Of a stretch of 27,011 nucleotides of DNA, positions 4,509-21,079 are shown in pieces; position 1 is the first letter of the stretch, and each line of letters opens with the position of its first letter. The stretch comes from a virus, in IMG/VR virus record IMGVR_UViG_3300020474_000084, positions 1 to 27,011 of that record; one strand, given 5' to 3'. The notes beneath the pieces were generated by a model. That model was not told where the DNA came from, ran no database searches, and worked only from the letters and a program-made list of their open reading frames with translations. A program made the translations under genes and the position numbers.

Positions 4509-6989
4509 TTATCCAAGTGCAATAGCTAGACCTAGGCTTACTCCAGCTGCAGGAATATTGTCCACAGTCCATTTTTGTGTTGCAGTTTTATATCTAAGGA
4601 CTTGATTGTTAGCAAGAGGTTCTACACCGTTAGAGAAGCGAGAACAAGTTAGTGTTACTGAAGCTGCACTACTTGAATGGTATAGACCAGCATTTGCAAA
4701 CACTACTGTTCCATAACTACCAGAAGGTATTGGTTGCGCTGTTATAGTATTAACAGTTGTGGTTTGGGATGCAGTTGTACCATTAGAATGTGTCCAATCA
4801 AGCGTAACACTATCTCCAACTTGCAGGGCTTCCATGTTTGATTTAATGGAAGCGTTTGTTGGCTTAAATGAAAAGTTTCCGGTGTTTGCGTCCGTAAAAA
4901 AGCTAAATTCTGAATCATTAGGACCGGGAGTGCTGGTTAAACCATCATCAAACGTTAATGAATTACTTGATGGTGCATAAGCAAAGTCAGTCTGCGTAAT
5001 AATGGAACCTGAATCTTCTGGAGTCCACTTGGACGTTGCAGTTTTATATTTAAGTACCTGGTTGTTTGTAAGAACCTCAGTACCATTACTCATTTGAGCC
5101 GAAGAAATAACTACAGCGTTACTTGTTGGCTTACTTATAGACCAGACGGTTCCAAATTTAACCTCTAGGTTGTTGTACGATGAGGAATTTGCTGTAGGTA
5201 GTTGAGTTATTGTTGTGTTTAAAGATGTATGATAGGAGGGATCATTACCATAAGTAGTGGTATAAGCTAAAGTTACATTATCGCCAACTGATAACGTATT
5301 TAAAGCATCTTTAACTTGTGTATCGTTAGGACTAAAGTGTAAAACTGCATATGAGGTTCCGGCAGCATCAGTAGGATAGTATTCTCCAGATGATAGGGTT
5401 CCAGAAACTGCAACTGCATTTAAATAAGTTGGAAGTGTTGCAGTATTACTTGACGGCGCATAAGCAAAGTCATTCTGCGTAATAATTGTAGCAGAGCTAT
5501 CCACATATGCTTTATTTGCAGCGTGATTAGCAGCAGTAGGATTACCAGACAGTGTTAATGGAGTAGTTATTGACGCACCTGTACCAGTAAGGTTTAGAAC
5601 AGTCCCACTGTTAACGGCTGAAAGAGTGATACCAGTATTACCAGTATTGATAATACTATTACCGCTTGACAAGTAATCAGAACCTTTCCACGACAAATTT
5701 CCTGCGCCATCAACCTGCAATAGATTATTTGCAGCGCCAACTGTATCAGGTAGCTTTAAAGTATAAGTAGCACCTGCACTATGTTGTGGTCCTTTGATCG
5801 TTACACCATGGGAATTGTTGTCACAATTAAGAGTAATCTGACCTGAACCATTCGTGCTATCACCTTTTACGACAGGAAGAGATTCAGTTAAATACCTATT
5901 CTCAGGATCAGCAGCAAAATACTGTTGCCATACCCACTTAGATGTAGATGAGTTGTACTGTAGTCGGACTGTTAGATCAGTTGAACCAACAAAACCTGCT
6001 GGCACACCAGAAACAGAACTATTACTCTCAACTCCCGTTGAATTAACAACCTCAACCCTATCTTCATTAGAAGGGCTACCAGGAAGATTTGCAAGTGCTG
6101 CAATAGGCGCATAAAACGCAGTTGCTGCCACAGTAGCTGCTGCTGCATTAGCTGTGTTAACTGCAGCCGTAGCGTTTGTATCAGCAGTATTAGCTGTTGT
6201 TACTGCACCATTGGCAGTCGTTACAGCATTAGCTGCAGTTGCAATTGTTGAATTAGCTGTAGTAACAGCACCGTTAGCAGTTGTTGTAGCAGTAGCAGCA
6301 TTAGCTAGTGCCGTATTAGCTGTAGTTGTTGCACTATTAGCAGTCGTAATAGCAGACGCAGCATCTGTAGCAGCACTGTTAGCAGTCGTAACTGCTCCGT
6401 TCGCTGTAGTTGTAGCTGTGTTTGCTGTGTTAACTGCAGTAGTAGCGTTAGTCGATGCTGTATTAGCTGTACTAACAGCATTAGTAGAGTTTGTGTTAGC
6501 AGTGTTAGCAGTAGCTACAGCAGTATTAGAATTAGTTTCAGCTGTGTTAGACGTTGCTACAGCAGCATCTGATTTAGTGTTTGCTGAGTTAGCTGTAGTC
6601 ACTGCTCCATTAGCAGTCGTTACAGCAGAGTTAGCCGTGGTTACAGCACCGTTAGCTGTAGCGGTAGCTAAAGCAGCTTCAGCATCAGACTCCTGTGTAA
6701 CGTATAAGTTTTGAGTAAAGTTTTCGTTTAAATCCTCAGCTTTAATGGCGGAGCCAGGGAAGAAAGTAGAACTAAGCGTATCGCTAGGTGTGTCACGGAA
6801 AATACGAATAGCCACACCAGTAGCTGGTGCCGTTGTAAATGCCAGCGTCGTAGCGTTAGCAAATGTATATGCAGTTGTAGCGGCTGTATTAAGTGTTACC
6901 TTGACATCAGCCTGTTTTAAATATTCAAATGTAAATGAATAGTTCGTTGTAGAACCATTCCCTGTGTATGTGTTTTGTGTTGTTGCCAT
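4509..6989 (-). CDS. tail fibre protein (T7 gp17-like N-terminus)
   Basis: An 826-residue fibre, longer than T7 gp17 (553). Residues 1-100 match the T7-type fibre N-terminal attachment domain: YTGNGSTTNYSFTFEYL, then FRDTPSDTLSSTFFPGSAI and LNENFTQNLYVTQE. Residues 111-285 are 25 heptads of TANxAVT type, an Ala/Asn/Thr coiled shaft. Residues about 300-340 include a WVWQQY segment found in phage tail proteins, and the distal half holds two related modules beginning IITQNDFAYAPSSN (near residue 500) and IITQTDFAYAPSSN (near 661), each ending in an NNQVLxYKTAT-KW motif. The protein should trimerise, attach to the tail tubular A/portal region and bind the host surface. No intramolecular chaperone domain was recognised. 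Confidence 0.88.
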   Translation of the reverse strand: MATTQNTYTGNGSTTNYSFTFEYLKQADVKVTLNTAATTAYTFANATTLAFTTAPATGVAIRIFRDTPSDTLSSTFFPGSAIKAEDLNENFTQNLYVTQESDAEAALATATANGAVTTANSAVTTANGAVTTANSANTKSDAAVATSNTAETNSNTAVATANTANTNSTNAVSTANTASTNATTAVNTANTATTTANGAVTTANSAATDAASAITTANSATTTANTALANAATATTTANGAVTTANSTIATAANAVTTANGAVTTANTADTNATAAVNTANAAAATVAATAFYAPIAALANLPGSPSNEDRVEVVNSTGVESNSSVSGVPAGFVGSTDLTVRLQYNSSTSKWVWQQYFAADPENRYLTESLPVVKGDSTNGSGQITLNCDNNSHGVTIKGPQHSAGATYTLKLPDTVGAANNLLQVDGAGNLSWKGSDYLSSGNSIINTGNTGITLSAVNSGTVLNLTGTGASITTPLTLSGNPTAANHAANKAYVDSSATIITQNDFAYAPSSNTATLPTYLNAVAVSGTLSSGEYYPTDAAGTSYAVLHFSPNDTQVKDALNTLSVGDNVTLAYTTTYGNDPSYHTSLNTTITQLPTANSSSYNNLEVKFGTVWSISKPTSNAVVISSAQMSNGTEVLTNNQVLKYKTATSKWTPEDSGSIITQTDFAYAPSSNSLTFDDGLTSTPGPNDSEFSFFTDANTGNFSFKPTNASIKSNMEALQVGDSVTLDWTHSNGTTASQTTTVNTITAQPIPSGSYGTVVFANAGLYHSSSAASVTLTCSRFSNGVEPLANNQVLRYKTATQKWTVDNIPAAGVSLGLAIALG
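6135..6659 (-). repeat. 21-bp coding tandem repeat, 25 heptads in fibre shaft
   Basis: Residues 111-285 of the tail fibre consist of 25 uninterrupted seven-residue units with consensus T-A-N-x-A-V-T; TANGAVT itself occurs five times. At DNA level this is a degenerate 21-bp tandem array in which identical units are scattered among diverged ones. The opposite strand is open and encodes an Ala/Val-rich shadow frame, not a gene. Such arrays can gain or lose whole units by slippage while keeping the frame, changing shaft length. Confidence 0.85.
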
Positions 6990-18326: not shown

Positions 18327-18353
18327 AAAAAAAAGGGACCCCGAAGGATCCCC
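18327..18353 (-). terminator. intrinsic terminator after major capsid gene
   Basis: On the minus strand a seven-pair stem, GGGATCC with GGGTCCC (one T-G wobble), closes a TTCG tetraloop in the stable C(UUCG)G context and is followed by eight T. It starts 17 bases after the capsid stop codon. This is a textbook Rho-independent terminator, and the position between capsid and tail genes equals T-phi of T7. It should cap most transcripts after the capsid gene, keeping capsid mRNA high relative to tail and core protein mRNA. Confidence 0.92.
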
Positions 18354-18369: not shown

Positions 18370-19518
18370 TTAGAATGAAGAAGGAGCTGAATTAGTGACA
18401 TGCAGCTCAACAGCTGCAGCAGGGTTCAGGTAGTCCGCCCCCATCGCGAGTCGCCCGAGGATTACGTCTCCCTGATAAATCACGGATACGTCTCCACTGG
18501 TTACTTGTACTTGAGGACCGATTGCTTCTACGCAACCAGCAGCTTCACGCTGGAAGATAAGACCAGCAGACACTGCACCGAATTCGGAAGCAGTACCGTA
18601 GTCATTGTTGATGCCAGTAGTAGCACCAGAAGCATCTTCTAAGGCAGGACCAATGAAATCTCCGGTGTTACCAGGAGATGTCTGACCTGTAGTTCCACCA
18701 TACTTGGTGCCGTACTTGCCAAGGAACGGAATGTTCATTGACTTGTAGATCTTGATACCAGCGATCTCGATGATGCCGTTACCGCCTTGCAAGGCAGGAC
18801 CAGTTTCATCGCGATTAACTAGACCGTTTGAACCACAAGCTTGGATCAATTCATAGTATTGACGTGGGTTCAAGACGCCCACTCGTCCGTCACCAGATAC
18901 ACCCTTTTCATCGAGTGCAGCGGCAGCGTCATAAAAGGCTGCGATTAGTGCGGAAGAAGAGTATGCATCAGCTTCTGAACCACTACCAGTACCAACTTGA
19001 ATCTGTGTACCACCTGGCTCAACGAAGTTAGTTGCACTAACAGGTGAAGCCTCACGTGCACCACGTGCAATAGCACGGAAGATCAAACGGTCATACTTTT
19101 CTGCGAGGGCGTAGCCGATCTTGCGGCTGATCTCCGAACGCAGATCGTAATGAGAAAGAGTCTCATCAAGGTCATAAACGAACGCTGAACTGATCAGCAG
19201 GTCGTCAACCGTGATTGTCTTCTCTGCCACTGGAGGTGCACCATCGGAGTTACCGAGGATTGCGTTTCCAGGGGTGTGATACTCAGCCGTGGTACGGCCG
19301 GTATAGATGAACTGCAAAGACTTGCCGTTCTTAAGTGTACGCTTCATCACCAAATCGCGAGCAATCGCGTTATGCTGGAAGCCTTTAAACATTTCTCCAC
19401 TGAACAAATTCAGATAGAGAGCGCGGCGTTGTGCAGTTGTTGGAGACTGACCACCCGCCAAATTATTAGCGCCGACAATAACCTGATTGGTTGTCAGCGA
19501 TGAACTTTGATGTGCCAT
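18370..19518 (-). CDS. major capsid protein, T7 gp10-like
   Basis: A 382-residue HK97-fold capsid protein (T7 gp10A is 345). Recognisable segments: NLFSGEMFKGFQHNAIARDL, KNGKSLQFIYTGRTTAEYHT, PPVAEKTITVDDLLISSAFV, then DETLSHYDLRSEISRKIGYA and NPRQYYELIQACGSNGLVN; the same motifs occur in T7-like capsids. It forms the icosahedral shell around the portal. The gene is followed by a strong terminator and preceded by a structured 150-base leader; the absence of a Shine-Dalgarno sequence at such a highly expressed gene is notable, and TATAAT lies just before the ATG. No sign of a gp10B frameshift product was seen. Confidence 0.93.
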   Translation of the reverse strand: MAHQSSSLTTNQVIVGANNLAGGQSPTTAQRRALYLNLFSGEMFKGFQHNAIARDLVMKRTLKNGKSLQFIYTGRTTAEYHTPGNAILGNSDGAPPVAEKTITVDDLLISSAFVYDLDETLSHYDLRSEISRKIGYALAEKYDRLIFRAIARGAREASPVSATNFVEPGGTQIQVGTGSGSEADAYSSSALIAAFYDAAAALDEKGVSGDGRVGVLNPRQYYELIQACGSNGLVNRDETGPALQGGNGIIEIAGIKIYKSMNIPFLGKYGTKYGGTTGQTSPGNTGDFIGPALEDASGATTGINNDYGTASEFGAVSAGLIFQREAAGCVEAIGPQVQVTSGDVSVIYQGDVILGRLAMGADYLNPAAAVELHVTNSAPSSF

Positions 19519-19547
19519 TATTATAGAGAGTAAATGTATATTCGACT

Positions 19548-19635
19548 CTCAAAGATCTTTGAGTTATTTAATTGTATATGTGTGGTCTATCCCACCGTCT
19601 AGACGGCTAAAGGTATCCTCCGTAGAGGGCTAAAG
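19548..19635 (-). promoter_or_regulatory. structured leader of the capsid gene with duplicated hairpins and a palindrome
   Basis: The stretch 19519-19672 has no gene. In transcript order it contains CTTTAGCC followed by CCTC-TACG-GAGG (hairpin 19617-19628), then a second CTTTAGCC followed by the perfect palindrome CCGTCTAGACGG (19595-19606), and then the perfect 16-bp palindrome CTCAAAGATCTTTGAG (19548-19563), 29 bases before the capsid ATG. The two hairpins share the direct repeat CTTTAGCC-N-TCTA. The function could be promoter-proximal mRNA stabilisation, RNase processing, or protein binding at the start of the capsid transcript. The structures are seen; the role is inference. Confidence 0.55.
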
Positions 19636-19646
19636 CCAATAGTGAA

Positions 19647-19665
19647 GCCGGGACTTGAACCCGGC
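19647..19665 (-). other. tRNA T-arm-like hairpin
   Basis: On the minus strand GCCGGG and CCCGGC form a perfect six-pair stem around the seven-base loop TTCAAGT, which fits the T-loop consensus TTCRANY. No matching acceptor, anticodon or D arm is present at the right distance, and the YRG peptide gene occupies the space where the 5' half would be, so it is not a complete tRNA. It could be a relic of a tRNA gene, a 3' tRNA fragment of the attP type, or a hairpin closing the peptide mRNA eight bases after its stop codon. There is no T-run, so it is not a canonical terminator. Confidence 0.5.
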
Positions 19666-19672
19666 AGTAAGC

Positions 19673-19732
19673 CTATTTCTTATTCACAGTTTTGTTGTAC
19701 TTGTTGCCGCGATAAGTGAGAGTAACAGTCAT
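19673..19732 (-). CDS. 19-residue YRG downstream peptide
   Basis: A tiny frame, ATG 19732 to TAG 19673, encodes a basic peptide starting MTVTLTYRGNKYNK. The LTYRGxxY motif is the hallmark of short peptides that follow Downstream-peptide RNAs in cyanobacteria and cyanophages (and of the DUF4278-type small cyanobacterial proteins). The start is 15 bases downstream of the last pseudoknot strand of the RNA element, so ligand binding could directly control access to the start codon. Peptide function is unknown. The gene is short, but motif and riboswitch together make a real translated product likely. Confidence 0.75.
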   Translation of the reverse strand: MTVTLTYRGNKYNKTVNKK

Positions 19733-19746
19733 TGTTAATTCCAATT

Positions 19747-19797
19747 ACCTAGCCCCCGTTCCATGACTAGGCGGCATGCGTCCTAACGGATGAACGT
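19747..19797 (-). ncRNA. Downstream-peptide RNA motif (glutamine riboswitch class)
   Basis: On the minus strand, 5' to 3': CGTTC (19796-19792), TCC-GTTA-GGA hairpin (19790-19781), CGCATGCCG, CCTAG (1971x; 19771-19767 is CCTAG with its G at 19767), CATG, GAACG (19761-19757) and CTAGG (19752-19748). CGTTC pairs with GAACG to close the outer stem, the inner hairpin has a GTTA loop, and CCTAG pairs perfectly with CTAGG beyond the outer stem to form an H-type pseudoknot. This layout and the CGUUCA, GGACG and GGAACG sequences are those of the Downstream-peptide motif, related to the glnA RNA; both bind L-glutamine. It precedes the YRG peptide start by 15 bases. The likely role is to tie expression to nitrogen status of the infected cell. 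Confidence 0.82.
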
Positions 19798-19808
19798 AAG
19801 TACTTTAC

Positions 19809-19994
19809 TTATGCGCCAAAATGTAATCCGTATTTATTATACATCTTGTTTAGGCGTACAGCTTCTCTCTTCTTATCCTTTGGATCTTTAATGCTTTTAT
19901 AGTGATCGAACAACATCTTTTTATTGTCTGGTGTCATATGACCAGCTATGAATTCATCTCTTTTTCCGCTTTTAATTTTTAGTCCTGAAGCCAT
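19809..19994 (-). CDS. 61-residue basic protein, unknown function
   Basis: Starts MASGLKIKSGKRDEFIAGHM and is Lys/Asp-rich throughout (YKSIKDPKDKKREAVRLNKM), predicted helical, with a YNKYGLHFGA end. No signal peptide, TM segment or known motif. It starts five bases after the psbA stop codon, so it is probably co-transcribed with psbA, and stops just ahead of the riboswitch element. Frame, codon use and spacing support a real gene; function not recognised. Confidence 0.65.
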   Translation of the reverse strand: MASGLKIKSGKRDEFIAGHMTPDNKKMLFDHYKSIKDPKDKKREAVRLNKMYNKYGLHFGA

Positions 19995-19999
19995 AGAGT

Positions 20000-21079
20000 T
20001 TATCCAATAGAAGGTGCAGTCAGTGCTACCTCAGTGGTAGACGCTGCTGCTAGATCAAGTGGGAAGTTATGAGCATTACGCTCATGCATTACTTCCATTC
20101 CAAGTCCCGCACGGTTAAGAATGTCAGCCCAAGTAGGGACAACGTGGTTCCCGTTATCGACAATGGATTGATTAAAGTTGAATCCGTTAAGATTGAAAGC
20201 CATAGTGCTAACACCCAAGCTTGTAAACCAAATGCCAAGCACAGGCCATGCAGCCAAGAAAAAGTGGAGGCTACGCGAGTTATTAAATGAAGCATATTGA
20301 AAGATCAATCGTCCAAAGTATCCGTGAGCAGCGACAATATTATATGTCTCTTCTTCCTGTCCAAATTTATACCCATAGTTCTGAGATACCGTTTCGGTCG
20401 TCTCCCTAACCAGGGAACTGGTGACAAGAGAACCATGCATAGCACTGAACAAAGCCCCACCAAATACGCCGGCAACACCAAGCATATGGAAAGGATGCAT
20501 AAGAATATTGTGTTCAGCCTGGAAGACCAACATGTAGTTGAAGGTGCCGGAAATGCCAAGAGGCATCGCATCTGAAAAAGAACCTTGTCCAAAGGGATAT
20601 ACCAAGAAGACAGCACTTGCCGCAGCGACAGGTGCTGAGTAAGCAACGAAGATCCAAGGGCGCATACCTAGCCTGTAGCTAAGTTCCCATTCGCGTCCCA
20701 TGTAAGAGTAGATACCGATAAGGAAATGGAAGACAACGAGTTGGAATGGTCCACCGTTGTAGAGCCATTCATCGAGACTTGCTGCTTCCCAGATGGGATA
20801 GAAGTGCAGGCCGATTGCATTGCTAGACGGGACAACTGCTCCCGATATAATGTTATTTCCGTACAGGAGCGATCCTGCAACTGGTTCACGAATTCCATCA
20901 ATATCAACAGGGGGTGCGCCAACGAAGGCAATAATGAAACAAGTAGTAGCTGCAAGCAGCGTAGGAATCATAAGGATTCCGAACCAACCGACATAGAGAC
21001 GGTTGTTAGTAGAGGTAACCCAGTTACAAAAGGCTTCCCAGTTATTTAGTTTTTGTGGTCTTGAAAGTACAGCGGTCAT
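20000..21079 (-). CDS. psbA: photosystem II D1 protein
   Basis: A full-length 359-residue D1, the reaction-centre protein whose turnover limits photosynthesis during infection; phages encode it to keep PSII working. All key residues are present: Y161, D170, E189, H190, H198, H215, H332, E333, D342 and the processing end at A344, with the C-terminal extension [15 protein letters not shown]. Residue 130 is Glu ([10 protein letters not shown]), the high-light D1:2-type choice. Five TM helices are expected in the thylakoid membrane. No intron. It lies in the auxiliary block between scaffold and capsid. The 107 bases upstream hold a hairpin and three TTACTTA repeats but no clear Shine-Dalgarno sequence. 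Confidence 0.98.

Follow-up and report, generated by a model that had tools for sequence, protein, structure and literature searches.

A predicted structured RNA adjoining tRNA-like and hairpin modules in the capsid-gene leaders of T7-like cyanophages

Introduction

Transcripts that contain tRNAs are processed by tRNase Z and RNase P, and a number of bacterial mRNAs, such as ompA, carry stabilising hairpins at their 5′ ends. The leader of the capsid gene in T7-like cyanophages, which we describe here, recalls both of these systems. As in tRNA-containing transcripts, a tRNA or an acceptor/T-arm minihelix can lie directly 5′ of the mRNA; in the cyanophages, however, this module is joined to a fixed partner (an RNA core) and to the capsid gene, can be swapped for a hairpin that is not tRNA-like, and has a cleavage site that we infer. 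As in ompA-type leaders, an abundant message is structured close to its 5′ end, although here the structure takes the form of a conserved multi-helix core with a tRNA-like neighbour.

A further likeness is to the OLE, GOLLD and ROOL RNAs, which, in the excerpt of PMC12286853 consulted, share with the cyanophage leader the possession of palindromes that switch sequence and yet remain self-complementary; the same excerpt places GOLLD and ROOL in phages, often near tRNA islands. Whereas OLE, GOLLD and ROOL are large and their oligomers have been solved, the cyanophage leader has a core of about 58 nt and an oligomer that is predicted only. Cyanophages and marine cyanobacteria also harbour other structured cis-acting RNAs, including the PhotoRC-II, manA, wcaG and Downstream-peptide (Glutamine-II) motifs (PMC2864571). 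These differ in structure and in associated genes, Glutamine-II itself being found upstream of the capsid leader analysed here, and the word ‘capsid’ does not occur in the main text of that paper. In the open-licence literature we came across no title or abstract opening concerned with a capsid-leader RNA of this type, and an earlier report may exist; we file the element under a known kind, the structured mRNA leader.

Results

The window, by which we mean the whole stretch of DNA analysed, is a virus record of 27,011 bases from a T7-like cyanophage that has its main genes on the minus strand; all features described below are on that strand. The gene order there runs from psbA through a small ORF and the leader to the capsid gene. 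The major capsid protein gene was recognised as an ORF (18370–19518, with its ATG at 19518) that matches annotated capsid proteins with a coverage of 80–100%, and is followed directly on its 3′ side by a terminator-like UUCG hairpin and U run (18334–18353). A terminator-like hairpin was found at this place in 213 of 359 loci, as compared with 28 of 359 when the sequences were shuffled (all loci counted). Upstream of the capsid leader core lies a Glutamine-II riboswitch (RF01704, 19747–19799, 50.9 bits) and, after it, a 19-codon mini-ORF (19673–19732), the 3′ end of which shares bases with the acceptor-like 5′ strand in the mini-tRNA described below. The leader had been called gene-free in an earlier note on this DNA, a description that fails for the upstream stretch, which holds both the riboswitch and the mini-ORF. 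Elsewhere in the window, an ORF of 826 aa (4509–6989) contains many repeats of a TTANGAVTTANS-like unit.

The same note had reported a duplicated pair of elements before the capsid gene, each made up of a shared repeat and a hairpin. The letters are indeed present: CTTTAGCC at 19628–19635 and again at 19605–19612, CCTC-TACG-GAGG at 19617–19628 and CCGTCTAGACGG at 19595–19606, all of which lie, as had been said, upstream of the capsid ATG, at a distance of about 77–117 bases. In a search allowing up to two mismatches, CTTTAGCCNTCTA was found at two sites only, both of them exact (the chance figure of 2.37 refers to the search with up to two mismatches). The two copies of CTTTAGCC nevertheless turn out to be the two strands of a single helix, P1, in which GGCUUUAG pairs with CUUUAGCC and whose strands happen to look alike in this phage; the first copy corresponds to the 5′ strand of P1 together with the CC that follows it, and the second to the 3′ strand. 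Nor is the repeat conserved among relatives, since two copies of CTTTAGCCNTCTA were found in 3 and two copies of CTTTAGCC in 4 of 297 unique leaders, and we therefore rejected the idea of a duplicated unit. What held up well was the suggestion of a preserved structure, as the stems of related leaders vary in their letters and still pair. The structured element also extends well past the 41 bases first noted, spanning approximately 19548–19687.

From 5′ to 3′, the core consists of the P1 5′ strand, an unpaired C, hairpin P2, an AUAC bulge, the P1 3′ strand, a linker or the palindrome PAL1, and hairpin P3. In the window, P1 is formed by GGCTTTAG (19630–19637) and CTTTAGCC (19605–19612); the helix has about 8–9 positions, often with a UU/UU internal loop. 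The P2 hairpin (CCTC-TACG-GAGG, 19617–19628) is closed by a YNMG-type tetraloop and is separated from the P1 3′ strand by the AUAC bulge (19613–19616), while P3 (GTGG-GATAGA-CCAC, 19582–19595) has a loop of the GANAGA type. The pairing of P1 is kept in relatives that have, at the corresponding positions, GGCA/UGCC, GGCG/CGCC, GGUA/UGCC, GACU/AGUC or GGUU/AACC, and in the Syn5 group, where CCUA is found with UAGG. The two arms pair in 128 of 132 of their own combinations, as opposed to 10.7% when arms are swapped between phages. For P2, 30 distinct stems were recorded among leaders found through the capsid protein, and swapped arms paired in 19.8% of trials. Eight complementary stem types surround the one loop type of P3 (GUGG/CCAC, GUCUG/CAGAC, GUCG/CGAC, GUUCG/CGAAC, GUGUG/CACAC, GUAGG/CCUAC, GUAG/CUAC and GCUG/CAGC), a tally made without a shuffle or swap control; the P3 scan also returned one chance hairpin type and left 24 leaders without a match, some of them incomplete. 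An alignment test of 12 pairs, carried out with a structure that was off register at P2 and P3 and so understates the helices, found 82.2% of cells paired and one P3 pair at 0%. These comparisons show that the pairing of P1, P2 and P3 has been strongly conserved through many changes in sequence.

A plain hairpin, CCGU-CUAG-ACGG, can be drawn in some phages, but has bases in common with P1 and is lost in L018 and in the S-CBP1 group, and was set aside. The architecture varies in places: three capsid leaders (L172, L177 and L194) retain P1 and P3 and have a far longer hairpin-like insert in place of P2, and L200, L204, L205 and their relatives have an extra hairpin (for example TGAGTC...GACTCA), whose loop is non-palindromic, between the core and the palindrome PAL2.

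Our main counts are based on the 297 unique leaders of loci that were retrieved with the capsid protein, a set that excludes loci L081–L199, which were fetched by the core’s own pattern and would bias counts of the core, together with 11 incomplete loci with wrong leader stretches; the leaders are related, so that counts are not independent events. A parser for P1 and P2, which like the P3 scan requires pairing and for which shuffle and swap controls were run, passes 271 of the 297 leaders and leaves 26 unparsed. It passes 174 of 188 leaders in group B, 70 of 72 in the S-CBP1 group and 27 of 37 in group A. The controls gave 1 pass among 891 dinucleotide shuffles, 2 among 269 stretches taken from further upstream and none among the 297 reverse complements. 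Counts in a wider set that includes pattern-fetched and mis-cut loci come near to those of the recount; the parser there passes 329 of 370.

A model built from 59 cores matched 83 of 89 sources at E ≤0.0005, once each; the six sources that lack a match (L007, L014, L057, L058, L059 and L069) end at or near the capsid start. When whole genomes of eight isolates were searched (P-SSP7, S-RIP2, S-TIP37, S-B28, P-SSP2, P-GSP1, S-RIP1 and S-SBP1), each yielded one good match (E ≤7.3e-6), upstream of the capsid gene, with weak extra matches (E 0.007 to 0.77) in three. Among the capsid loci of 12 further isolates, six match at E <0.01 (NATL2A-133, P-SSP6, NATL1A-7, S-CBP1, S-CBP3 and S-CBP4), and no match below this value was found in S-CBP2, S-TIP28, SS120-1, P60, Syn5 or S-CBP42. 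S-TIP28, SS120-1, Syn5 and S-CBP42 pass the P1 and P2 parser with other letters; the leaders of P60 and S-CBP2 fail it.

When contigs of bacterial and archaeal genomes were scanned by pattern, six places were hit, and all six loci encode a podoviral capsid protein. Under stricter filters, two of 121 genomes from the family of a Prochlorococcus genome match the core model; the same two match the model of the 15-nt-loop hairpin described below, and the two elements adjoin each other in loci that include a capsid gene. A host origin was rejected because the matches in bacterial contigs adjoin a podoviral capsid gene. Five contigs binned as other bacteria (L504, L505, L507, L508 and L509) carry a cyanophage leader and capsid gene, and are probably mis-binned phage DNA. 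By eye, the leader of a pelagic relative, the uncultured phage S39-C11, shows no likeness to the element. Roseobacter phage CRP-227 (L510), from another host group, has a P2-like piece, CCGGATGCGTCCGACAACCC, upstream of its capsid gene. Scans against Rfam 15, covering the window at the gathering score, its positions 19400–20000 to E 5 and eight related loci to E 1, matched neither the core nor the 15-nt-loop hairpin to any family; the matches returned were to Glutamine-II, tRNA and abiF, none of them on the core.

Directly 5′ of the core, the window contains a T-arm-like hairpin (GCCGGG-TTCAAGT-CCCGGC, 19647–19665) and an acceptor-like stem, whose 5′ strand GTGAA (19683–19687) lies inside the 3′ end of the mini-ORF and pairs with the TTCAC that immediately follows the T stem. 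This 3′ strand, with a further TA, occupies 19640–19646, close to the putative point of cleavage. Such a mini-tRNA consists of an acceptor and a T arm and has neither D nor anticodon arm. Across the 297 unique leaders, the module in this place is a T-loop hairpin in 104, a hairpin with a 15-nt loop in 173 and neither in 20, and in no leader were both present. An acceptor-like partner was found in 88 of 95 unique T-arm contexts, as compared with 69 of 285 when tails were taken from other phages. Complete tRNAs were identified by ARAGORN in 11 of the 297 leaders (8 Gly, 1 Leu, 1 Trp and 1 Cys), all on the sense strand; NATL1A-7 has an annotated tRNA-Gly in its capsid leader, and in the 13 tRNAs examined for spacing, the gap between the tRNA and P1 was 1–3 nt. 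A tRNA, or a T loop with an acceptor-like stem, thus adjoins the candidate cut site, and this holds in the window too. At one locus (L060, 2761–2797), an abiF RNA match (RF03085, 47.8 bits) lies just before the tRNA of the capsid leader.

The third kind of module is a hairpin with the near-invariant 15-nt loop CACCUCAGWGUMGGA, or a close variant of it, a constancy that is partly by construction, as the copies were collected by pattern. Its stem varies; in 36 of the 148 copies collected, each of the nine pairs changes on both sides, and 92.3% of cells are paired, as opposed to 65.5% in shuffles. Among 20 isolates, a model of this hairpin finds a single match (E ≤5.1e-14) in each of seven, and there is one more at E 0.46; the seven matches lie within about 70 bases of a core match or of the capsid start region.

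Two palindromes accompany the core. PAL1 (CCGTCTAGACGG, 19595–19606, with an inner GTCTAGAC at 19597–19604) shares positions with the end of P1 as well as with the start of P3, and PAL2 (CTCAAAGATCTTTGAG, 19548–19563) lies between the core and the ATG. Defining a palindrome of the PAL2 type as a perfect one of at least 8 bases, four or more of them G or C, we found one between core and ATG in 267 of 309 unique leaders and in 120 of 1545 shuffles. PAL2 occurs in 66 versions with 12 central tetranucleotides and is palindromic throughout; among 50 distinct hairpins with 4-nt loops, selected solely on their arms, 30 had perfectly self-complementary loops, where 1 in 16 would be expected for random loops. 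PAL1, scored as at least five paired steps from the centre, was found in 23 of 25 distinct tails in group B (44 of 500 shuffles) and in 18 of 23 in group A (39 of 460 shuffles), and is absent in the S-CBP1 group (0 of 24 distinct tails; 28 of 480 shuffles). Some versions of PAL1, such as GUUGAC and GGUGCUAGCGCC, are symmetric only when G-U pairs are counted, which points to RNA. Moreover, because adjacent bases of one chain cannot pair, their joint change in these palindromes suggests a contact between two chains, an argument also made from palindromes for OLE and GOLLD in the part of PMC12286853 consulted. A self-complementary contact that changes in sequence across relatives is therefore seen for PAL2 and, in two of three groups, for PAL1.

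The predicted gain in energy on forming a dimer was −14.9 kcal/mol, compared with −8.8 for shuffles (60 leaders); for the three groups, the gains were −14.0, −15.3 and −15.1, compared with −8.9, −9.1 and −8.0. The energy model pairs the PAL1 region in 31 of 35 S-CBP1 leaders as well, so that models of this type are not specific for dimers.

Discussion

The core lies just 3′ of a tRNA, mini-tRNA or hairpin module and just 5′ of the capsid gene. The reading we favour, with a probability of roughly 0.45 and on grounds of sequence comparison, is that T7-like cyanophages have a structured RNA at the 5′ side of their capsid message, in which the module would be processed and the core would shield the mRNA. 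The tRNA or tRNA-like module would serve as a substrate of host tRNA maturation, with tRNase Z acting at its 3′ side and RNase P perhaps at its 5′ side, so that the late transcript would be cut a few bases before P1. Such a cut would place P1 almost at the very start of a newly made message that would end at its own terminator, and the core may then resist RNase E and the 5′–3′ exonuclease RNase J. The 15-nt-loop hairpin may do the same job in other phages, and the GANAGA loop and AUAC bulge could bind a protein or form a tertiary contact. The excerpt of PMC10989914 consulted names RNases Z, P, E and J for cyanobacteria, and that of PMC9692554 reports a rise in RNase E during P-SSP7 infection. 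The latter excerpt also cites antisense RNAs as protecting phage transcripts in P-SSP7; these offer an alternative to the leader core as a shield. Among the functions first guessed at for this element, RNase processing or mRNA stabilisation is the best fit, because tRNAs and mini-tRNAs abut it. Counting against the processing model are the facts that the commonest upstream module, the hairpin, is not tRNA-like, that the mini-tRNAs lack D and anticodon arms, and that 20 of 297 leaders have neither module and 26 of 297 do not parse. The model does not need the palindromes, and dimerisation may add to it.

If the palindromes are given more weight, the leader can be read as one that homodimerises, with PAL1 and PAL2 each pairing with its counterpart in a second capsid mRNA; dimers would be favoured as the mRNA accumulates, would alter its translation or decay, and would be compatible with processing. 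The frequency and 66 versions of PAL2, the self-complementary loops, the presence of PAL1 in most tails of groups B and A (against about 9% of shuffles), its G-U-only symmetry, the excess in predicted dimer energy and the precedent of OLE and GOLLD all speak for this. Set against them, PAL1 fails in the S-CBP1 group, where the energy model pairs the region anyway, shuffled leaders gain dimer energy too, many copies of PAL2 could fold as simple hairpins, and PAL2 could act as DNA. We regard homodimerisation as possible though somewhat doubtful, and as rather unlikely the composite in which capsid mRNAs are released because they pass for tRNAs, and go on to homodimerise via two symmetric palindromic contacts, so that the message could sense its own concentration. 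That the palindromes and their position mark a DNA element, a promoter or operator before the capsid gene, seems to us extremely improbable: there is one good match per genome in the eight isolates, changes across the loops preserve pairing, and 66 versions of PAL2 do not fit a fixed operator. The earlier suggestion of a phage RNA polymerase promoter founders on the same observations, as several copies per genome would be expected (weak extra matches occur in three of the eight isolates). In addition, no match to the Syn5 promoter, with its sequence taken from the part of PMC3950665 consulted and with up to three mismatches allowed, was found in the window or in four capsid loci from isolates (L200, L208, L215 and L216), Syn5 included.

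The conserved unpaired AUAC bulge, the GANAGA loop and the site before the ATG would also suit a regulatory aptamer that controls capsid translation by binding a small molecule or a protein (the capsid or scaffold protein, for instance, or one of the host's RNA-binding proteins). No clear expression platform was found, however, a helix that joins PAL2 to the start region, in competition with the palindrome, being weakly enriched (37.5% versus 19.7% among 184 leaders), and the abutting tRNA modules would be left unexplained; we consider an aptamer unlikely. Those modules would be equally unexplained by a self-cleaving ribozyme, in which the RNA would be cut by its own core or 15-nt-loop hairpin. 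Although each is small and compact, with near-invariant loops, at the putative point of cleavage, neither matches any Rfam ribozyme family in the stretches scanned, and we judge a ribozyme very unlikely.

The hosts of these T7-like cyanophages, Prochlorococcus and Synechococcus, are major marine photosynthesisers, and P-SSP7, a cultured model phage, carries the element. The conserved RNA, its modules and its palindromes suggest that the phages cleave the message for their shell protein, shield it and perhaps pair it with a second copy. If the processing model is true, the leader would show a phage setting apart and protecting one key message, would provide a series, found in nature, of interchangeable modules (a tRNA, a mini-tRNA and an unrelated hairpin), and would offer a small test case for mRNA homodimers.
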